Positions 9,066 through 18,709 of a stretch of DNA of 58,616 nucleotides are shown here, piece by piece (position 1 is the stretch's first letter; each line of letters starts with the position of its first letter). Location of the stretch: the NCBI GenBank assembly GCA_022510605.1, contig JAFLTB010000007.1:1-58616 (forward strand), given 5' to 3'. The position numbers and the translations under genes are program-made. The notes beneath the pieces are model-generated. The model saw only the letters and a list, made by a program, of their open reading frames with translations. It searched no databases and was not told where the DNA came from. The stretch is from Lachnospiraceae bacterium (GTDB lineage Bacteria; Bacillota; Clostridia; Lachnospirales; Lachnospiraceae).

Positions 9066-9488
9066 TTAACAATTGCTTTTGTCAAAATCCGGATTGTAAG
9101 CGTAGAAGTTCTTTTTGTTCAAATCGTCCTGAACCAGGCGCAGGCCTTCACCGAAACGTTGGAAATGAACCAGTTCTCTCTGGCGCAGGAAACGAATCGG
9201 GTCACATACCTCCGGATCTTTTACCAGACGGAGAATGTTGTCGTAGGTGGTACGGGCTTTCTGTTCTGCCGCTAAATCCTCTGTCAGGTCGGTAATCGGG
9301 TCACCGGTGCTCTGGAACTGCGTAGCGCTAAATGGCACGCCGCCGGCCGACTGTGGCCAGAGGCCCAGGGTGTGATCCACATAATACTCGGCAAAGCCCT
9401 GTTCCTGGATTTGTTCCGGGGTCAGGCCTTTTGTCAGCTGGTGAACAATTGCGCAGACCATTTCTGCGTGGTTGAGTTCTTCAGTACC
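9066..9488 (-). CDS. cotJC: CotJC (manganese-catalase-like spore coat protein), 3' fragment
   Basis: C-terminal 140 residues of CotJC, the Mn-catalase-family spore protein. Homology starts exactly at GTEELNHAEMV, and residues upstream of that in the open frame are encoded by the inserted element. The fragment carries the ligand residues of TEELNH, TEDLAAEQKAR and RELVHF, but lacks the first glutamate (in GPDGELGA), which sits in the 5' fragment 4.5 kb away. Neither piece could form a dimanganese site alone. There is no start codon or ribosome site of its own near the junction. Excision of the element would fuse it in frame to the 5' fragment, giving a 201-residue protein. Confidence 0.92.
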   Translation of the reverse strand, partial: GTEELNHAEMVCAIVHQLTKGLTPEQIQEQGFAEYYVDHTLGLWPQSAGGVPFSATQFQSTGDPITDLTEDLAAEQKARTTYDNILRLVKDPEVCDPIRFLRQRELVHFQRFGEGLRLVQDDLNKKNFYAYNPDFDKSNC

Positions 9489-9489
9489 T
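9479..9489. repeat. Left attachment core of the cotJC element
   Basis: CTTCAGTACCT matches the right core CTTCTGTACCT (14025-14035) at 10 of 11 positions. Both fall on the same codons of cotJC (Ile-Gly-Thr-Glu), so crossover anywhere in the shared bases restores the frame. Confidence 0.8.
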
Positions 9490-9591
9490 GCAGAGGAGAC
9501 GGAAATGTTCCATTTCAGTCTGAAAAGTCCCCCTCTGGTTATATGGTACAATCATCGGCTCGTATATTGGAAAATGAGGAGGTGTTGACAT

Positions 9592-9780
9592 TTGCGACAT
9601 CGGGAATTCGTTTATATGGGTGATCCTATTCCGGACATCAGCATACAGGAGCATGGAGATTTTCTCATAAATCTTCAAAAAGCAATTCTTTGCTCATTAG
9701 AAAAAAGAAAACTATTGTCCGCCTCAGAGAGGGAGCGCTGCCTGCTTGAACTTGAAAAACAACAGGGAGATTTGCCATGA
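9592..9780 (+). CDS. Small protein upstream of the recombinase
   Basis: 62 residues, charged and mostly helical (LQKAILCSLEKRKLLSASERERCLLELEKQ). A TTG start is chosen because GAGGAGGT (9576-9583) sits eight bases upstream; an internal ATG at 9616 lacks one. The stop overlaps the recombinase ATG by four bases (ATGA), so the two are translationally coupled. I do not recognise a family with certainty; it resembles short SHOCT-like helical proteins. Its place makes it a candidate accessory or directionality factor for excision, which is inference only. Confidence 0.6.
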   Translation: MRHREFVYMGDPIPDISIQEHGDFLINLQKAILCSLEKRKLLSASERERCLLELEKQQGDLP

Positions 9781-11204
9781 ATAAATATGAACGCTTAAAC
9801 CAGGAGAGAGCGACCACCGATGGCAAAAAGCGGGCAGCCGCCTATTGCCGTGTATCTACGGACAAGGAAGATCAGGCCAATTCCTTTGAGAGCCAGCAGC
9901 GGTATTTCAGGGAGTATATTGAGCGCAACCCGGATTGGGAGTTGTATGAAATATTTGCCGATGAGGGATTTTCCGGTACAAACACAAAAAAACGTAAAGA
10001 GTTTAACCGTATGATGGCGTGTGCGAAAGCGGGAGACTTTGATTTGATTCTCACGAAGGAAATTTCCCGTTTTGCCAGAAACACCCTGGACAGTATCTAT
10101 TACACCCGTGAACTTAAAAAACATGGGGTAGGCGTTATTTTTCTGAACGATAATATCAATACTATGGACGGGGACGCCGAACTTCGTTTGGCGATTATGG
10201 CCTCCATTGCCCAGGAGGAGAGCCGCCGGACTTCAGAGCGTGTGAAATGGGGGCAGAGACGGCAGATGGAGCAGGGTGTTGTGTTTGGCAGAGACATGTT
10301 GGGGTACGATGTCCGTGGCGGAAGAATGTATATTAACGAAGAAGGGGCTGGAATTGTACGCCTTATTTTTCACAAATTTGTCAATGAGGGGAAAGGTGCG
10401 CATGTGATTGCCCGTGAACTCCGGGAAGAAGGAATACCGCCGATGCGGCGTGTAAAAGAATGGCAGAGTGCGGTAATTCTCCGTACAATCCGAAACGAAA
10501 AATACTGTGGTGATTTAGTCCAGAAAAAGACCTATACACCCGACTTTTTATCCCATGAAAAGAAAGTAAACCGGGGCCAGGAGGAATTTATTATCATAAA
10601 AGACCACCATGAACCGATTATTTCCCGTGAAATGTTTGAAAAAGCAAATCGTATTCTGGAAGAACGTTCCCTGTCTCAAAAAGGCAGGGCAAAGTACAGT
10701 AATCGCTATCCTTTTTCCGGGAAAATCAAGTGCGGCTGCTGTGGCTCCAGTTATGTGGCACGATATAAGACCAGAAAGGATGGCAGTAAGTATAAGGCGT
10801 GGCGCTGTAATGAGGCTGTCAGACACGGAAGGCCTCATGTGGATGCGGCAGGAAACCAGGCAGGATGCAGGGGGGTGTCTATCCGAAATGAGGATGTGGT
10901 TCATATTATGTATCTTGTGAGCCAGAGCCTTACATATGACAGAGATAAAATCACGAAGAATCTGACTGCCATTATTCAATCGGTAGTGGGAGGTGGGGAC
11001 AGGAAGCAGGGTACAGATGGGAAGAAGGAGTTTATGAGGGAAATTACCAATGTGATTGCCGAAATTGTCGGCGGTATGCAATATGAGGATGAATTTTACA
11101 GGCAGATTTTAGATAAGTTGGTGGTACATGATTGCGATACTATCGATGTATTTTTGAAGCTGATTCCTGTGAAATGGAGTTACAGGTCTGCAGGAAATTC
11201 TTGA
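9777..11204 (+). CDS. Large serine recombinase
   Basis: 475-residue site-specific recombinase. Resolvase catalytic domain at about 18-165, with the nucleophile Ser27 in AAYCRVSTDKEDQ and the motifs RKEFNRMM and KEISRFARN; then the recombinase domain (about 190-290, LGYDVRGGRMYINEEGAGIVRLIF) and a zinc-ribbon region (CGCCGSS ... WRC ... C) at about 325-370. It has the length and order of Clostridial integrases that move skin-like and phage-like elements. Translationally coupled to the small ORF in front. The gene reads toward the interior of the element. Expected to cut and rejoin the GTACCT cores. Confidence 0.95.
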   Translation: MNKYERLNQERATTDGKKRAAAYCRVSTDKEDQANSFESQQRYFREYIERNPDWELYEIFADEGFSGTNTKKRKEFNRMMACAKAGDFDLILTKEISRFARNTLDSIYYTRELKKHGVGVIFLNDNINTMDGDAELRLAIMASIAQEESRRTSERVKWGQRRQMEQGVVFGRDMLGYDVRGGRMYINEEGAGIVRLIFHKFVNEGKGAHVIARELREEGIPPMRRVKEWQSAVILRTIRNEKYCGDLVQKKTYTPDFLSHEKKVNRGQEEFIIIKDHHEPIISREMFEKANRILEERSLSQKGRAKYSNRYPFSGKIKCGCCGSSYVARYKTRKDGSKYKAWRCNEAVRHGRPHVDAAGNQAGCRGVSIRNEDVVHIMYLVSQSLTYDRDKITKNLTAIIQSVVGGGDRKQGTDGKKEFMREITNVIAEIVGGMQYEDEFYRQILDKLVVHDCDTIDVFLKLIPVKWSYRSAGNS

Positions 11205-11229
11205 CAAGTAGTGTCTTATTATGTGATAC
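11201..11229 (+). promoter_or_regulatory. Promoter for the pepD-DUF819 cargo
   Basis: TTGACA (11201-11206) overlaps the recombinase stop codon; a 17-bp spacer leads to TGATAC (11224-11229). The -35 is perfect. It lets the cargo pair be expressed independently of the recombinase. Confidence 0.65.
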
Positions 11230-11276
11230 TATCATCAAATGTAATATTTAATAACTATGAGAAAGGGAGATGCAAC

Positions 11277-12725
11277 ATGGACATACATGAACTTGAACCT
11301 CAAAAGGTCTTTCACTTCTTTTCTGAGATTGCCCGAATCCCTCACGGTTCAGGAAATACAGCGGCTTTAGCAGAGTATTGCCTGAACTTCGCCAGAGAGC
11401 GGGAGCTGGAAGCTTACAGGGACGATTATGGAAATGTGGTGATTTTTAAGGCCGGAACAAGGGGATATGAACAGAGTGAAGCCATCATTGTACAGGGACA
11501 TCTTGACATGGTCTGTGAAAAACATCCGGACTGCTCCAAGGATATGGAGCGGGAGGGAATTGAAGTGGTAGTGGACGGGGAATATCTCCGTGCCAATGGA
11601 ACGACACTGGGGGGCGACGACGGTATTGCGGTAGCATACATTCTGGCTCTCCTGGATGAAAAAGAGATTTCGCATCCGCCCATTGAAGCCCTGCTTACTG
11701 CAGATGAGGAGACTGGCCTGCAGGGAGCATATGCGCTGGATGTATCCAAACTCACTGGAAAACGGATGATTAATATTGATTCCGAAGAAGAAGGTGTTTT
11801 GACGGTAAGTTGTGCCGGAGGAGTGCGTATTAACAGCACTGTGCCCCTGGCTTATGAAAAAACAACTGCTTCCATGTGTGCCAAAAAGATTACCGTAGGC
11901 GGCCTTTTGGGCGGCCATTCCGGCGTTGACATCGGTAAGAATCGTAAAAATGCCGCCATTATACTGGCGGAGGCGCTTTATGAGATTGGCAGCCATGCCG
12001 GATTTCGGATGGCAGAGATGGCATCCGGAGGCAGGACGAATGTGATTCCATCAACAGCAGAAGCAGTAATCTGTATGGAGCCTTCCGAAACTTCCAAGGT
12101 GGACAAGGCTCTTGCAGAGTTTAACGCATGGTTCAAGGCTGCCTGTGCGGATACGGAGCCGGATGCTCAGGTAATAGCCGCCGACACACAACTTCCAGAG
12201 GAATGTCTTGATACTGCTTCCACAGACATTGTTATATCTACGCTGTTGCTCGTGCCAAACGGTATTTCATCCATCAGCCCAGATATCCCGTTTCTTGTGC
12301 AGACCTCATCCAATCTTGGCAGTGTGATGATTCAGGAGGGAAATCTGGAACTTGGATTTTTGATGCGCTCAAACACAGATTATGGAAAAGAAGAAACGCT
12401 GCGGCGTTTTTCCTGTCTGTTTGCCCAGAGAAATGGCAAGATGTTAGCGGAAGACGATTATCCTGCCTGGGAATACAGGCGTACCTCGCCTTTGAGAGAC
12501 ACCATGGTGCAGGTGTATGAGGAAATGTACGGGGAAAAACCCCAGATATGCGCCATCCATGCGGGACTTGAATGCGGGATTCTGGCAGAAAAGATACAGG
12601 GGGCGGATATGATTTCCATCGGCCCTAATATGAAAAATGTCCATACGCCAGAGGAACGGCTGGAGATTGCATCTGTGAAGCGCTGCTGGGAGTATCTTCT
12701 GCGGGTGCTTGCCAGTTTGAAGTAA
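11277..12725 (+). CDS. pepD: Aminoacyl-histidine dipeptidase (PepD, M20 family)
   Basis: Cytoplasmic zinc dipeptidase (Xaa-His and other dipeptides), 482 residues. M20 metal-site motifs are visible: GHLDMVCEK (His and Asp), LGGDDGIAVAY (bridging Asp) and LLTADEETGLQGA (catalytic and metal Glu). GGLLGGHSGVDIGKNRKNA and a C-terminal HAGLECG complete the signature. Start ATG 11277 follows AAGGGAG; the upstream open frame has no ribosome site. It is cargo of the cotJC element, 33 bases ahead of a transporter gene. A function in peptide nutrition together with that transporter is inferred. Confidence 0.93.
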   Translation: MDIHELEPQKVFHFFSEIARIPHGSGNTAALAEYCLNFARERELEAYRDDYGNVVIFKAGTRGYEQSEAIIVQGHLDMVCEKHPDCSKDMEREGIEVVVDGEYLRANGTTLGGDDGIAVAYILALLDEKEISHPPIEALLTADEETGLQGAYALDVSKLTGKRMINIDSEEEGVLTVSCAGGVRINSTVPLAYEKTTASMCAKKITVGGLLGGHSGVDIGKNRKNAAIILAEALYEIGSHAGFRMAEMASGGRTNVIPSTAEAVICMEPSETSKVDKALAEFNAWFKAACADTEPDAQVIAADTQLPEECLDTASTDIVISTLLLVPNGISSISPDIPFLVQTSSNLGSVMIQEGNLELGFLMRSNTDYGKEETLRRFSCLFAQRNGKMLAEDDYPAWEYRRTSPLRDTMVQVYEEMYGEKPQICAIHAGLECGILAEKIQGADMISIGPNMKNVHTPEERLEIASVKRCWEYLLRVLASLK

Positions 12726-12758
12726 TCTAAAAAATGATGACAAAGGAGAATACGTGTT

Positions 12759-13934
12759 ATGATTGAAAATGGTTTTTTGTACATTGCCACATTAATTTTT
12801 ATTGCGGCACTGTTAGTCTGTCTGCCCAAAATTTTCAAGGGCAAAAAAGCACAGCGGTTTTTTGATTTTGCACCGCCTATCGTGCTGATTTACCTGGGAC
12901 TGATGCTGTTTTGTACGGTGAAGCTCTGGAATCTGGATGCCACATCTGAGGCATACAATTCGTTGAAAAATCCTATCCTGTACGCCATGATTTTTATCAT
13001 GCTGCTGCGATGCGACCTCAAAAAAATTGTGCGCCTTGGTCCGAAAATGCTGATTGGATTTTTCTCTGCCACCATTTCCATTGGTCTTGGCTTTGTGGTT
13101 GCCTATGCAATTATGTCAGGACTGCTGGGAGAAAATGCCTGGCAGGCTCTGGGTGCTCTTTGCGGCAGCTGGATGGGCGGCGGTGGAAACATGCTGGCAA
13201 TTCAGGCAGCCCTGGATGTACCGGAATCCATGATGGCATATGCGCTTGTGATGGATTCTATCTGTGCAACACTTTATGTTATGTTCCTTCTCTGGGTCAT
13301 TAACTTTGCAGACAAATTTAATAAATGGACAAAAGCCGATACCAGTCTGATTGACAGTGTAGGACAGGCTCTTGAGGAAGAAGCGAAAGCCAACACGAAG
13401 CCGCTTGTATGGCAGAACATCATGATTCTGATTGGTGCGGGGCTCTTTGTCTCAGCGATATCCCAGGAGATCGGCGGACTGATTGGCAATTACCTGAGTT
13501 TCTTTGATAAGGCAACCTGGACAGTGCTGATTGTAACCGTGCTTGGCGTGGGATTTGCCCTTACACCATTTGGTAAGCTGAGAGGTACGGAAGAAGTTTC
13601 CAATGTAATGCTCTACAGTGTGGTGGCATTAATTGCTTCCCGTGCAGACCTGTCTGCCATGGGAAATGCTCCGGCATGGCTGTTGACAGGACTTATCATA
13701 CTGCTCATCCATGTTACCATTATGATCATTCTTGCCAAACTGCTGAAGATTGATATTTTTACAGCCTCTGTGGCTTCCCTGGCTAATATCGGCGGAACAG
13801 CTACGGCTCCGGTGCTTGCCGGCTCCTATAGCAGCGCACTGGTGCCAGTGGGTATCATCATGGCACTGCTCGGTTACGTGGTCGGAACCGGCGGCGGTCT
13901 GATTGTAGCACATCTTATGAGTTTGTTTGGATAA
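12759..13934 (+). CDS. DUF819 family membrane protein (putative transporter)
   Basis: 391 residues with about ten transmembrane segments and short loops; the family is annotated as DUF819 and is thought to be a carrier of unknown substrate. Seen: an N-terminal hairpin, the glycine-rich segment CGSWMGGGGNMLAIQAAL, and a near C-terminal NIGGTATAPVLAGSY segment typical of the family. AAAGGAG lies 11 bases before the ATG. It directly follows pepD, so the pair may handle the import or export of a peptide or of amino acids released by PepD. It is the last gene before the right end of the element. Confidence 0.85.
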   Translation: MIENGFLYIATLIFIAALLVCLPKIFKGKKAQRFFDFAPPIVLIYLGLMLFCTVKLWNLDATSEAYNSLKNPILYAMIFIMLLRCDLKKIVRLGPKMLIGFFSATISIGLGFVVAYAIMSGLLGENAWQALGALCGSWMGGGGNMLAIQAALDVPESMMAYALVMDSICATLYVMFLLWVINFADKFNKWTKADTSLIDSVGQALEEEAKANTKPLVWQNIMILIGAGLFVSAISQEIGGLIGNYLSFFDKATWTVLIVTVLGVGFALTPFGKLRGTEEVSNVMLYSVVALIASRADLSAMGNAPAWLLTGLIILLIHVTIMIILAKLLKIDIFTASVASLANIGGTATAPVLAGSYSSALVPVGIIMALLGYVVGTGGGLIVAHLMSLFG

Positions 13935-13978
13935 ATTAACGCAATAACAATTAAAAACATTAAAGTAAACGGTATAAA

Positions 13979-14026
13979 AGCCCCTGAAAATGTCATGTCA
14001 AAAGCTGGCGGAACATTTCAGGGGCT
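13979..14026. repeat. Inverted repeat next to the right attachment core
   Basis: AGCCCCTGAAAATGT (13979-13993) pairs with ACATTTCAGGGGCT (14013-14026) apart from one bulged base. The right arm runs into the attachment core and contains the attP arm. It may be an accessory recombinase site or a terminator without a T-tract for the cargo operon. Confidence 0.65.
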
Positions 14027-14217
14027 TCTGTACCTATATCGGTCAAAATACCACAAACCTGTTTGTTGGTATTGGAATACCGCTGGGACAGGTAGCGCTG
14101 GGAAGCACCCAGTTCGCCATCCGGGCCGCCAAACTGGCTGATAATTACCTTTGCCAGCTTTGCATTCGGCCGTGTAATATTAACGGGATATTCTAAAGTT
14201 CTGTCATACGTCCACAT
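13993..14217 (-). CDS. cotJC: CotJC, 5' fragment
   Basis: N-terminal 64 residues of CotJC (MWTYDRTLEYPVNITRPN..., GGPDGELGASQRYLSQRY, LTDIGTE), followed by ten residues (APEMFRQLLT) encoded by the inserted element and a stop. Thus the operon as it stands would give a truncated 74-residue protein. The ATG overlaps the cotJB stop (TAATG), so translation is coupled. The first metal ligand (Glu of GPDGELGA) is here; the others are in the distant 3' fragment. Precise excision links codon 64 to the Glu-Glu-Leu-Asn of the other part. Confidence 0.93.
   Translation of the reverse strand: MWTYDRTLEYPVNITRPNAKLAKVIISQFGGPDGELGASQRYLSQRYSNTNKQVCGILTDIGTEAPEMFRQLLT
14025..14035. repeat. Right attachment core of the cotJC element
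   Basis: CTTCTGTACCT, one base different from the left core at 9479-9489. It lies at codons 62-64 of cotJC. Confidence 0.8.
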
Positions 14218-14480
14218 TAGTTACAGCCTCCTTCCCAAGGCCATGGGTCCCGGACCCAGGTCCATCCGTCGCAGGTATCTACGCCGTTTGAGGTCAGCGG
14301 GCCGAAGCGTTTTTCGTACTCCCGGCGCACCTCCCTGTTAATATCCTGATACTTGTTGTAATAGTCCAAAGCCTTCTCATCCTCCGGATGGCTGTCAAGA
14401 TAGAGACCAATTTCAATCAGGGCAAAAGCCGCTTCTCTTACATTTTGCATCAAGGCCTCTCTTTCATTCTGGTTTTTCAA
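14217..14480 (-). CDS. cotJB: Spore coat protein CotJB
   Basis: Small spore-coat assembly protein, 87 residues with a TTG start, the usual CotJB length. The family core is plain: ALIEIGLYLDSHPEDEKALDYYNKY, REYEKRFGPL and a C-terminal WVRDPWPWEGG. The TTG at 14480 is preferred: it overlaps the cotJA stop (TTGA) and GGAAGGAG lies nine bases before it; the ATG at 14489 is only three bases from that site. Middle gene of cotJA-cotJB-cotJC; expressed in the mother cell in Bacillus. Confidence 0.92.
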   Translation of the reverse strand: MKNQNEREALMQNVREAAFALIEIGLYLDSHPEDEKALDYYNKYQDINREVRREYEKRFGPLTSNGVDTCDGWTWVRDPWPWEGGCN

Positions 14481-14737
14481 TAGCCACATCTCCTTCCATT
14501 GGAGTAATTTTGAGACTGTTGGGAGCGTGACATGTTATTGCCCCGCGAATAATTACCGGAATAATTTCCCTGGCGATTGTTTACATTCGCCTGACAGGCC
14601 GCCTGGGCGCCGATGAAAGGAAAAATCAAATCTTCAAAGATACTTCCCTGGGCCAGGCCGCAGTTGCCATCCATGACATTTTCAAAAGGCTGCCAGGGAA
14701 CATAAGCCATGGCAAGTGGTTTGTTTGAAAGTTTCAT
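14477..14737 (-). CDS. cotJA: Spore coat associated protein CotJA
   Basis: 86 residues; the conserved part is LAMAYVPWQPFENVMDGNCGLAQGSIFEDL, followed by PFIGAQAAC and a low-complexity tail rich in Asn, Ser, Tyr and Arg. AAGGAG is five bases before the ATG. First gene of the operon. A sequence CCATACACAT about 60 bases upstream resembles a sigma-E -10 element, but no convincing -35 at the right spacing was found, so the promoter is left uncalled. Divergent from the rubrerythrin gene. Confidence 0.9.
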   Translation of the reverse strand: MKLSNKPLAMAYVPWQPFENVMDGNCGLAQGSIFEDLIFPFIGAQAACQANVNNRQGNYSGNYSRGNNMSRSQQSQNYSNGRRCGY

Positions 14738-14841
14738 AGTAACTCCTTATTTTTTTATTACTTCATATTATGTAGAAAAAAGTCGAATGTGTATGGTTTA
14801 TGAAGGGAAAATGAAATTTACAGAAAATGGGAAATAGGAGG

Positions 14842-15598: not shown

Positions 15599-16348
15599 AT
15601 GAAGAAACGAAACATATGGTTTTGCCAGCTTTGTATAGGGGCGATGCTTCTGCTGGCAGGCTGCAGCGCCAATACGGCAGGAAACGTGACAGAAAAAAAT
15701 GGGGAGTCTGCCAGTGACAGTGTTGCCAGCGCCACCTATGAGGCAGTAAAGGACAACCCGACAGCGGAGGAGATGCAGGATACAATTTACAAAATACAGA
15801 TGCGTGTAGGAAATTTCAGTACCGAAGCCTCCGTATATCAGGAGGGTGACGACCGCATCACGGTTGATATTCCGGGTATCAGCGTTTCGGATGAAGTTTG
15901 GGAGGAGTTGGGACAGGCTGGTACTTTTCAATTTATATTGTATGAAAATCTGAAAGATAAAGATGGCATTCCTAACCCTAAGGATGGGGACGAGGTGACC
16001 TTCGATGAAAAAGATGTGAAAATGGATGGCTCCATGATTGAGGAGGTTCAGGCCACCAGACTGCAGCCGGAGGGTACAGATGTTTCAAAAAATGTAGTTC
16101 AGATTAAGTTTACCGGCGAGGGAACGAAAAAATTTGCTGAGGTAACCGGAGAACATGTAGGCGAGCAGCTGGCTATTGTATACGATAATGTGCTGGTGTC
16201 CGCGCCGGTTCTGCATTCTGCGATTACCGATGGTGAAGCGTTTATCGAAGGAGGGTTCGAGGAATTTTCCGAGGCGGAAGAACTTGCCTCCACCCTTCGT
16301 ATCGGTGCTCTTCCGTTGGAACTGAGACTGATAGAAGTAACAAACTAG
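15599..16348 (+). CDS. Lipoprotein carrying a stand-alone SecD P1-like domain
   Basis: 249 residues. Signal peptide II with lipobox LLAGC (Cys22), then about 22 linker residues, then a domain nearly the same as the first extracytoplasmic (P1) domain of the SecDF encoded 106 bases downstream: YEAVKDNPTAEEMQDT, FSTEASVYQEGDDR, LYENLKDKDG, NVVQIKFTGEGTKKFAEVTG, TLRIGALPLELR. It ends right after that domain, without any transmembrane channel part. The duplicated DNA (15734-16327 versus 16610-17203) is 594 bp in both copies with no length change. Membrane-tethered outside the cell. Possibly a helper or decoy for Sec-dependent export; function unknown. Confidence 0.85.
   Translation: MKKRNIWFCQLCIGAMLLLAGCSANTAGNVTEKNGESASDSVASATYEAVKDNPTAEEMQDTIYKIQMRVGNFSTEASVYQEGDDRITVDIPGISVSDEVWEELGQAGTFQFILYENLKDKDGIPNPKDGDEVTFDEKDVKMDGSMIEEVQATRLQPEGTDVSKNVVQIKFTGEGTKKFAEVTGEHVGEQLAIVYDNVLVSAPVLHSAITDGEAFIEGGFEEFSEAEELASTLRIGALPLELRLIEVTN
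15734..16327 (+). repeat. Tandem duplication, copy 1 (copy 2 at 16610-17203 in secDF)
   Basis: From ACCTATGAGGC to TTGGAACTGAGA, both copies run 594 bp in register. Differences are mostly in third codon positions, indicating duplication followed by selection on the protein. Confidence 0.85.
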
Positions 16349-16453: not shown

Positions 16454-18709
16454 ATGAACAGCAAAGCAAAAGGCGTTTTACAGATTCTGCTGGTTGTGAT
16501 ACTGATTGCGGCATTTGCCGTTATTGCGTATCGGGGAATCGGTGGTGCCCATAGAGGAAGCGCAAAAAATATCCGTCTGGGATTGGATTTACGGGGCGGT
16601 GTCAGTGTGACCTATGAGGCGGTAAAGGACAACCCGACAGCGGAGGAAATGCAGGATACTGTCTACAAAATGCAGAAGCGTGTAGAAAACTTCAGTACTG
16701 AGGCCTCCGTATACCAGGAGGGTGACAACCGTGTCACCATTGATATTCCAGGTGTCAGCAATTCGGCTGAGATTCTGGACAAGTTGGGACAAGCTGGAGC
16801 GCTTCAATTTATATTGTATGAAAACCTGAAAGATAAAGACGGCAATCCTAACCCTAAGGAAGGGGACGAAGTGACCTTCGATGAAAAGAATGTGGAGCTG
16901 GATGGCTCCATGCTTCAGGATGCCCGGGCCACCAGACGGCAGCAGGAGGGTACAGGTGTTGCGGAAAATGTGGTTCAGATTAAGTTTACTGGCAAGGGCA
17001 CGAAAAAATTTGCCAAAGTAACCGGTGAACATGTGGGCGACCAGCTGGCGATTGTGTATGATAATGTGCTGGTGTCTGCTCCGGTTCTTCGTTCCGAGAT
17101 TACCGATGGTGAGGCAGTTATTGAAGGAGGATTCAAGGAATTTTCTGATGCAGAGGAGCTGGCTTCCACCCTTCGTATCGGTGCTCTTCCATTGGAACTG
17201 AGAAATATCCATGACAATGTGGTAGGGGCCACCCTGGGAAGCGAGGCGTTGGAGAGCAGTCTTCTGGCCGGTTTGATTGGATTTATCTTAATTATTATTT
17301 TCATGATTGTGATGTACCGTCTGCCAGGTGTGTCGGCGGCTATTGCCCTGGTTTTCTATGTGGGAGCCATGCTTCTGATTCTGAATGGATTGAATGTGAC
17401 CCTTACACTGCCGGGTATTGCCGGAATCATCCTGAGTGTCGGTATGGCCGTGGATGCCAACTGTATTATATTCAGTCGTATCCGGGAGGAACTGGCCACA
17501 GGAAAGACGGTTTCCTCGTCTATTAAAAATGGTTTTTCCAAGGCGCTTTCCGCCATTATCGACGGTAATGTGACTACGTTGATTGCCGCCTTCGTTCTCT
17601 ATTTGAGAGGCTCGGGTACAGTCAAGGGATTTGCACAGACATTGGCTATTGGTATTGTTTTATCCATGTTTACGGCTATTTTTGTCACCCGTCTTTTGAT
17701 GAAAGCGTTCTGCTCACTGGGACTTGACGACGTCAAACTGTATGGTGTCACCAAAGAGAGAAAGACGATTAACTTTATTGGACACTGGAAAAAATATGTG
17801 GCAATTTCCGGCACCATTGTTGTGATTTGTATTGGCGGACTGATTTTTAATGCCACTGTGAAGGGTGAAGCGTTAAATTACAGCCTGGACTTTGTCGGTG
17901 GTACCTCTACTTCGGTATCCATTGACGAGCAGACGGAGATTACCGATGAATTAAAGGAAAATGTATTAACGGTAGTAAAAGATGCCACCGGACTGGATGG
18001 AGAGGTATCCACTTCGGATGATAAGGGCGTGAAGAAAATTACCGTCCGTACCACAGCTCTTACGGAGGAACAGGCGGAAGCAGTGAGAAGCCAGCTGGCA
18101 GAAAACTTCCATGTAGAGCAGGATCAGGTAGAATCCGAGACCATCAGTGCATCGGTCAGCAATGAAATGAAGACAGATGCTGTTGTGGCGACACTGATTG
18201 CCATTGTATGTATGCTGATTTATATCTGGATTCGTTTCCGCAATATCACTACGGGAGCCAGTGCGGTAATTGCGCTGATTCATGACGTGATTGTAGTATT
18301 TACGGTCTACGTGGTGGCCAGTGCGGCGATTCAGGTGGGAAGTACCTTCATTGCCTGTATCCTGACCATTGTGGGATATTCCATCAACGATACCATCGTA
18401 GTGTTTGACCGTATTCGGGAGAACCGGAAGACTGCTTCGGCACGCACCGAGCTGTCCGAGATTGTCAACAAGAGTATTACCGAAACGCTGTCCCGTTCCA
18501 TCAATACTTCGGTAACAACCTTTATTATGATATTTATGCTGGCGCTGTTAGGCGTAAGTTCAGTAAGACAGTTTGCCATTCCGTTGATTGTAGGTATTAT
18601 CGCCGGATGCTACTCCTCCATATGTGTGGCTTCCCCGGTATGGTATCTGTTTATGAAAAACAGTAAGAAGGAAAAAAGAGCGGTTACCTATTCCAAAAAG
18701 AAGAAGTAA
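16454..18709 (+). CDS. secDF: Protein translocase subunit SecDF (fused)
   Basis: Single 751-residue SecD-SecF fusion that uses the proton motive force to pull exported proteins outward. TM1 at about 8-28, the SecD signature LGLDLRGGVSVTYE at about 42, the P1 domain to about 250, five TM helices (about 265-430), then SecF: TM7, the P4 domain with DFVGGTSTSVSI, and five more TM helices with YSINDTIVVFDRIREN. Start ATG with AAGGAG. The upstream gene is a lipid-anchored copy of its P1 domain. Confidence 0.96.
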   Translation: MNSKAKGVLQILLVVILIAAFAVIAYRGIGGAHRGSAKNIRLGLDLRGGVSVTYEAVKDNPTAEEMQDTVYKMQKRVENFSTEASVYQEGDNRVTIDIPGVSNSAEILDKLGQAGALQFILYENLKDKDGNPNPKEGDEVTFDEKNVELDGSMLQDARATRRQQEGTGVAENVVQIKFTGKGTKKFAKVTGEHVGDQLAIVYDNVLVSAPVLRSEITDGEAVIEGGFKEFSDAEELASTLRIGALPLELRNIHDNVVGATLGSEALESSLLAGLIGFILIIIFMIVMYRLPGVSAAIALVFYVGAMLLILNGLNVTLTLPGIAGIILSVGMAVDANCIIFSRIREELATGKTVSSSIKNGFSKALSAIIDGNVTTLIAAFVLYLRGSGTVKGFAQTLAIGIVLSMFTAIFVTRLLMKAFCSLGLDDVKLYGVTKERKTINFIGHWKKYVAISGTIVVICIGGLIFNATVKGEALNYSLDFVGGTSTSVSIDEQTEITDELKENVLTVVKDATGLDGEVSTSDDKGVKKITVRTTALTEEQAEAVRSQLAENFHVEQDQVESETISASVSNEMKTDAVVATLIAIVCMLIYIWIRFRNITTGASAVIALIHDVIVVFTVYVVASAAIQVGSTFIACILTIVGYSINDTIVVFDRIRENRKTASARTELSEIVNKSITETLSRSINTSVTTFIMIFMLALLGVSSVRQFAIPLIVGIIAGCYSSICVASPVWYLFMKNSKKEKRAVTYSKKKK

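Follow-up and report, generated by a model that had tools for sequence, protein, structure and literature searches.

Contig JAFLTB010000007.1 of a Lachnospiraceae bacterium (GenBank assembly GCA_022510605.1), of which the whole 58,616-nucleotide stretch was analysed (the window), carries a cotJC gene split in two by a 4.5-kb element that encodes a large serine recombinase. Probably the element is of the developmental gene-intervening kind, and its removal in the mother cell would precede the sigma-K-type transcription of the cotJ genes. The 5' part of cotJC (14217-14026, minus strand, residues 1-64) matches the Mn_catalase family (Pfam PF05067) at profile positions 1-65, and the 3' part (9488-9066, minus strand), running from GTEELNH to the stop, matches it at the complementary positions 59-197, with the break point at codons 62-63 (hereafter site A). 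cotJB (14217..14489, PF12652) and cotJA (14477..14737, PF11007) are located upstream, the order being cotJA-cotJB-cotJC on the minus strand. The 4,546 bases between the halves hold four genes. An earlier note on this DNA had given the same coordinates for both halves and had placed a large serine recombinase and three more genes between them; these three were identified here as a 62-amino acid (aa) open reading frame (ORF), an M20 peptidase and a DUF819 protein.

The cores CTTCAGTACCT and CTTCTGTACCT, in direct orientation, are the only matches to CTTC[AT]GTACCT in the window on either strand. When the flanks were joined at the core, a single open frame of 201 codons was obtained, in which the stretch spanned by the junction peptide is LTDIGTEELNHAEMV, as the earlier note had predicted from cores lying at the same codons. 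In the same genus, G031 has an uninterrupted cotJC at L087 (L numbers denote loci and G numbers genomes; L090 is the locus of G011) with 97% aa identity to the rejoined window gene, and the rejoined window DNA aligns with L087 at 82% identity over 1,308 columns, the junction being crossed without a gap. The rejoined gene thus restores the frame and agrees with an uninterrupted ortholog, its halves being flanked by a short common core. The gap-free alignment to an intact gene of the same genus, together with the split at the same codon in dozens of genomes, places this arrangement far beyond chance. The note had proposed a search of relatives for uninterrupted cotJC and had held that split copies in all of them, coupled with a lack of junction or circle reads in sporulating cells, would argue for a dead insertion; intact copies are present in the genus (L087 and others), and with the open, protein-conserved split halves of the relatives they argue against a dead insertion. 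SpoIVA is present in the host genome, suggesting that the host is probably a spore former.

The att site on the C-half side (9470..9512) consists of CTTCAGTACCT (9479-9489) and the left attP arm GGAAATGTTCC (9501-9511, plus orientation), and that on the N-half side (14010..14040) of CTTCTGTACCT (14025-14035) and the right attP arm GGAACATTTC; the two ends carry the arms of one long inverted repeat, approximately GGAACATTTC..GCTTCTGTA-GGTA-CAGAAGC..GAAATGTTCC. By sequence, the element therefore has its own site-specific recombinase together with attL and attR. The left-arm motif CATT[TA] was found in 15 of 15 C-half att rows (named loci and the window) and in none of the 24 rows of genes whole at site A, whereas 39 of 45 N-half rows have the right-arm motif, for which a loose pattern also matches 4 of the 24 intact rows. 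An inverted repeat (13980..14025) overlapping the right attP arm lies just after the truncated cotJC and is similar to an intrinsic terminator (folded 81-base stretch, -24.0 kcal/mol).

All four genes of the element are on the plus strand. The 62-aa ORF (9592..9780) lies directly upstream of the recombinase gene, in the position of B. subtilis skr, and a small ORF is conserved in this skr-like position across the family (L013, whose coordinates contained a stop, was omitted from the alignment), making it a candidate recombination directionality factor (RDF). It had no match in Pfam, NCBIfam or PHROG, and its model matched no PDB fold at E 0.001 or better with Foldseek. The recombinase (9777..11204, 475 aa, coiled coil missing) contains Resolvase (PF00239), Recombinase (PF07508) and zinc-ribbon (PF13408) domains; its structure model was poor (mean pLDDT 68.4). 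The cargo consists of an aminoacyl-histidine dipeptidase family (M20) protein (11277..12725; Pfam and NCBIfam TIGR01893) and a DUF819 protein (12759..13934, PF05684). A prophage was considered and rejected, since none of the four genes has a phage-structural match in Pfam (PHROGs being run for the small ORF and the recombinase). When viral contigs were scanned with the recombinase, 2 loci were obtained, neither of them a free circle.

A recombinase scan of one genome per species gave 57 loci, of which 49 carry a cotJC piece and 44 an N-piece ending at site A, located within 400 bp of the recombinase in 37. The eight without a cotJC piece are L029, L034 and L052 (no piece within about 8 kb on each side), L054-L056 and L059 (24-39% identity) and L060 (a fragment). 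Carriers include Hespellia stercorisuis DSM 15480 (L044), Blautia sp. An249 (L033) and Lachnospiraceae bacterium 3-2 (L020). Both halves are present in 18 loci, separated by 3.0-12.0 kb; 15 of these were rejoined by script and 14 gave an open frame, the lone stop, in L092, being located at the second break of that gene (site C, see below). The other three (L053, L097 and L098) failed the core test of the script; by eye, GG is common to both ends in phase and an in-frame join is also expected. In some genomes of the family outside this 18-locus set, 28-43 kb lie between the pieces, as placed by profile matches. Among the cargo, the ten proteins scanned comprised histidine kinases, an ABC transporter, surface or transglutaminase-like proteins, a GDSL lipase, a WYL regulator, an AAA_14/DUF4143 protein and a trimethylamine methyltransferase, and none of the ten was a phage protein. 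The breaks occur at the same places in the single-contig genomes G319, G356 and G428. An attC pattern had matches in only 7 of the 397 genomes of the family and failed to detect the window's own site, so it is no guide to frequency.

Twenty locus pairs have recombinases that are 95-99% identical in nucleotide sequence; in 19 of them the identity of the cotJC N-halves is no more than 63-73%, the exception being L021/L025 (95.6%), so the element moves between species. The genus also contains a second recombinase type (A2), 44-57% identical to that of the window, which uses the same codon with different arms. Two further cut sites were found, each with its own recombinases and rejoinable in frame by sequence: site B, after residue 31 (ISQYGG/PDGE), and site C, near residue 135 (AAE/QKAR), with the core GCAGCAGA. 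All three sites presumably fall within the metal-ligand motifs of manganese catalases. Of 39 genomes of the genus searched, 25 have a PF05067 match and 15 of these show pieces; breaks at two sites were seen in G012, G014, G021, G022, G026 and G036 (some with the pieces on different contigs), G035 is whole at site A and cut at site C, and G033 and G037 (97-99% complete) have no PF05067 match other than the split copy. At family level, PF05067 was matched in 244 of 397 genomes. A strong single match was lacking in 75 genomes: in 54 of these, pieces lie on both sides of one break or more, in 15 on one side only and in 6 on neither; G390, one of the 75, proved intact, and genomes with an intact paralog plus pieces were excluded. 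The breaks in the 54 fall at site A in 28, B in 17 and C in 12, a genome with two breaks entering twice; they were placed from profile positions alone, and the count does not extend to the recombinases at them. The pattern thus goes beyond the single copy described in the note, extending to many species, two further sites, horizontal spread and an apparently repeated loss of the recombinase coiled coil.

Several loci have unusual arrangements. L090 (4785-10455), from the same genus, has the cargo and right end of the window element (84% nucleotide identity) with another recombinase type and left arm. L033, L093 and L096 are, by eye, composite site-A arrays, each end having arms of a different recombinase family, as if insertions had occurred in tandem at one attB. 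Three serine recombinase genes lie in tandem in L044 (5025-9290) and on contig C90 of the window's own genome (1139-4822); in L044, from Hespellia, the third is coiled-coil-less and of the cotJC type. In L111, on an IMG/VR contig classed as viral, two recombinases on opposite strands, 59% and 33% identical to that of the window, flank a cotJC piece (residues 30-64), an arrangement resembling loci with sites A plus B; L111 is probably chromosomal and not phage.

Promoters were compared with the sigma-E and sigma-K consensus forms, and spacer boxes with the SpoIIID box of B. subtilis, a species in which spoIVA is a sigma-E gene. Of 43 loci, 28 carry the strict sigma-E-type motif ATA-N16-18-CATA.A.T ahead of the small ORF, compared with a shuffle mean of 0.12; the 43 rows are those in which a small ORF could be detected (L002 was dropped as it duplicates the window), and being related they are not independent cases. 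In the window, the corresponding promoter (9538..9568, plus strand) is GTTATAT-N16-CGTATATT, a match to the loose motif only, with a SpoIIID-like box (GGTACAA) in the spacer, and the host's own spoIVA has ATA-N16-CATATATT upstream. GGTACAA or GGGACAA, like SpoIIID boxes, is frequent in the spacers. The C. difficile SpoIIID consensus is KRTAACARK (PMC5025042). For the target operon, a sigma-K-like promoter (CAC-N16-CATA) lies at 14762..14791 on the minus strand, and AC-N15-17-CATA was detected upstream of cotJA in 16 of 16 genus-type rows (mononucleotide-shuffle mean 1.71; L088 and L099 are one gene counted twice), at -52 to -59 in 15 of them and elsewhere in L107. A recombinase of sigma-E type ahead of a target of sigma-K type would give the order that excision needs.

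The coiled-coil region comprises 124-161 aa in 37 of 47 family-A recombinases and 59-93 aa in the other 10, the window's included (recombinases under 400 aa or under 60% identity being excluded). Mapped on a tree whose bootstrap had not settled and in which several rows have long branches, the coiled-coil label changes 7 times (5-7 in bootstraps), at least 2 changes being forced by well-supported branches, so the coiled coil was probably lost more than once. When the motif was deleted from LI integrase, the enzyme recombined attL with attR without an RDF, at low efficiency and without direction, and the same deletion left phiC31 integrase inactive (PMC10754689). L032 and L053 both lack the coiled coil, their cotJC halves are intact and their recombinases have a dN/dS (nonsynonymous to synonymous rate ratio) of 0.096, which argues for function of the coiled-coil-less form.

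The split halves show no sign of decay. The 79 N- and 55 C-pieces extracted, intact genes and some duplicates among them, are free of stops, save for L092 where it is cut at site C. Where dS was computable, dN/dS of the halves was 0-0.052, several comparisons being saturated: 0.005 and 0.018 for the window against intact L087, 0.034 and 0.052 against intact L077, and, for split pairs, 0.013 and 0.004 in L032/L053, 0.004 in L020/L024, 0 in L021/L025, 0 and 0 in L091/L096 and 0.03 for the N-half of window/L090. With the dS of the element as the yardstick, the ratios are about 0.01-0.03 for L032/L053, 0 for L091/L096, and 0.05-0.07 (N-half) and 0.14-0.2 (C-half) for window/L090. L091/L096, with an A2-type element at site A and site C also cut, differ little in dS between cotJC, recombinase and cargo (0.16-0.45), show a dN of 0 over 129 codons, and are the cleanest case of selection on cotJC while split.

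We propose that this small non-prophage element stays integrated in cotJC during growth, when transcription of the truncated gene would stop at the terminator on the edge of the element. Once sporulation is under way, sigma-E in the mother cell, possibly aided by SpoIIID, would turn on the 62-aa ORF and the serine recombinase, which would join the cotJC halves at the common GG(TAC) core and free a 4.5-kb circle; sigma-K-type transcription would then yield full-length CotJC, and the forespore would retain the element, which is thereby inherited. More tentatively, as quite possible if a little short of likely, cotJC in gut Lachnospiraceae and their kin may be multiply interrupted, by independent serine-recombinase elements at three fixed sites in presumed metal-binding-motif codons, sometimes two per genome, such that several excisions would be needed per mother-cell protein; in some lineages repeated loss of the coiled coil would have converted an integrase with a fixed direction into one that may need no directionality factor for excision. 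The developmental reading, already put forward in the earlier note, gained support from the intact relatives, the open and conserved halves and the recurrence of arms, small ORF and sigma-E-type promoter; for this particular copy it is qualified by the weaker promoter match and the lack of a coiled coil, and excision, its timing and the RDF role of the small ORF are inferred.

Several observations weigh against this developmental reading. The window's own genome has an intact cotJC paralog (L001, contig C1:7249-7806), 61% identical in aa to the split copy and adjoining a cotJB-like gene. The strict promoter motif is absent from 15 of the 43 regions, and the -10 of the window promoter is CGTA, not CATA, one base off the strict form. 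Among control recombinases the strict motif was found in 4 of 28, three of these from cotJC-bearing loci (L033, L035 and L057), compared with 17 of 47 for family A when measured likewise from the recombinase start; a sigma-E-type motif was found upstream of none of the A2-type (0/9 rows) and site-B (0/4) recombinases and in only 2 of 11 site-C rows. The window recombinase has 68 aa in the coiled-coil region and lacks the coiled-coil motif of the C-terminal domain; going by the LI and phiC31 results, it may either need no directionality factor for excision or have weak activity. The arms of G011 come from different recombinase families, so that in its present form this copy may be unable to excise, and an attP pattern gave 0 matches in IMG/VR. 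Finally, element genes are less diverged than host genes in four split pairs: in window/L090, cargo dS is 0.45-0.63, compared with 1.06 for the N-half and 1.90 for cotJB (dS above 1 being rough); in L032/L053, element dS is 0.26-0.28 and cotJ dS 0.53-1.08; and in L020/L024 and L021/L025 the recombinase has a lower dS than the N-half. Movement of these elements was thus probably later than the parting of their hosts, and part of the measured selection may therefore predate insertion. A shared, old insertion in the window and G011, for which cargo and flanks aligning at 84% in one BLAST block had seemed to speak, was not borne out by the per-gene dS.

The younger age of the elements in these four pairs would also suit a selfish integrative element for which cotJC is merely a convenient conserved attB, the gene being inactivated and the loss tolerated through the paralog. 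This alternative, which we regard as unlikely, agrees as well with the horizontal spread seen in 19 of the 20 pairs, with the intact paralog of the window genome, and with the frequent targeting of single conserved genes by serine recombinases (PMC10083194). It is opposed by the lack of stops other than at the second break of L092, by the low dN/dS, which stays low on the element yardstick except for the C-half of window/G011, by G033 and G037, in which the split copy is the sole match, by the 54 of 75 re-examined genomes in which pieces flank a break and nothing matches better, and by the mother-cell-type promoter. Copies similar to the intact paralog were noted in several genus-mates, and G033 and G037 have split pieces only. 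A dead insertion was set low because the halves are undecayed, an argument that the per-gene dS weakens.

It is very improbable that the element acts as a reversible on/off switch, excising and reintegrating in growing cells without a link to sporulation: the sigma-E-type promoter lies ahead of the operon in most family members, and we know of no vegetative role for the coat protein CotJC. What favours a switch is the coiled-coil-less window enzyme, coupled with the ability of LI integrase in that form to carry out both attL x attR and attB x attP reactions without an RDF (PMC10754689). Separate translation of the halves followed by their assembly is scarcely credible, even though both halves are conserved and the C-half frame of the window holds a TTG. 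That TTG has no ribosome-site match; in 8 of 24 distinct loci (9 of 29 rows) the C-half frame offers no start codon at all, only one C-half start has a ribosome-site match, and neither a start nor a ribosome site is conserved. The split also separates what we take to be the metal-ligand motifs. To an assembly artefact, which the fragmentation of the window genome into 123 contigs might suggest, we give practically no weight, the same break being found with matching att arms in many genomes and in single-contig genomes.

Elsewhere in the window, a 249-aa lipoprotein-like ORF (15599-16348) repeats, by eye, the N-terminal part of the adjoining 751-aa SecDF-like protein (16454-18709).

Intervening elements have been described in sigK, spsM, spoVFB, spoVR, gerE and yabG (PMC6957869, PMC5595907, PMC4191935, PMC10747680), and in the partial texts of these papers they appear as isolated cases, one per gene. 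The earlier note knew of no such element in cotJC, and none is described among the matches listed in the open-access literature (subscription papers and bioRxiv preprints lie outside this set). The principle is thus known from skin and gin, and cotJC may be added as a putative target, judged from sequence. In major gut bacteria, cotJC seems to have been targeted recurrently and across a whole lineage, at three sites, by several recombinase families and by elements down to 3 kb in size. The question of why such elements persist, through regulation or through addiction of the host to excision, becomes addressable, and serine recombinases that naturally lack the coiled coil would put present models of how integrases gain their direction to the test. 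Unless excision is known of, such genes are read as broken fragments.

In cyanobacteria, the heterocyst fdxN element is excised during development by the serine recombinase XisF, which is also the best NCBIfam match of the window recombinase. The score (124.7 bits, cut-off 375) is far below the family cut-off, and phylum and development differ. SPbeta in spsM, vfbin in spoVFB, vrin in spoVR and yin in yabG follow the same principle in other genes (PMC4191935, PMC10747680); they are phage or phage-like, and the partial texts mention one element per gene. The gin element in gerE of B. cereus ATCC10987 is likewise a non-prophage element with a serine recombinase, accompanied there by a directionality factor, but has 28.6 kb, three recombinases and a different target gene (PMC5595907), compared with 3.0-12.0 kb in the 18 loci here. 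In skin, which interrupts sigK of B. subtilis and C. difficile, a serine recombinase likewise restores a mother-cell gene, and in B. subtilis the recombinase gene is immediately preceded by skr, which codes for a 64-aa RDF under a sigma-E promoter (PMC6957869). The small ORF and recombinase under a sigma-E-type promoter described here have this skr-spoIVCA layout; skin, however, is prophage-like and located in sigK, whereas the present element has four genes, none of them phage-structural by Pfam, and a coat enzyme as its target.

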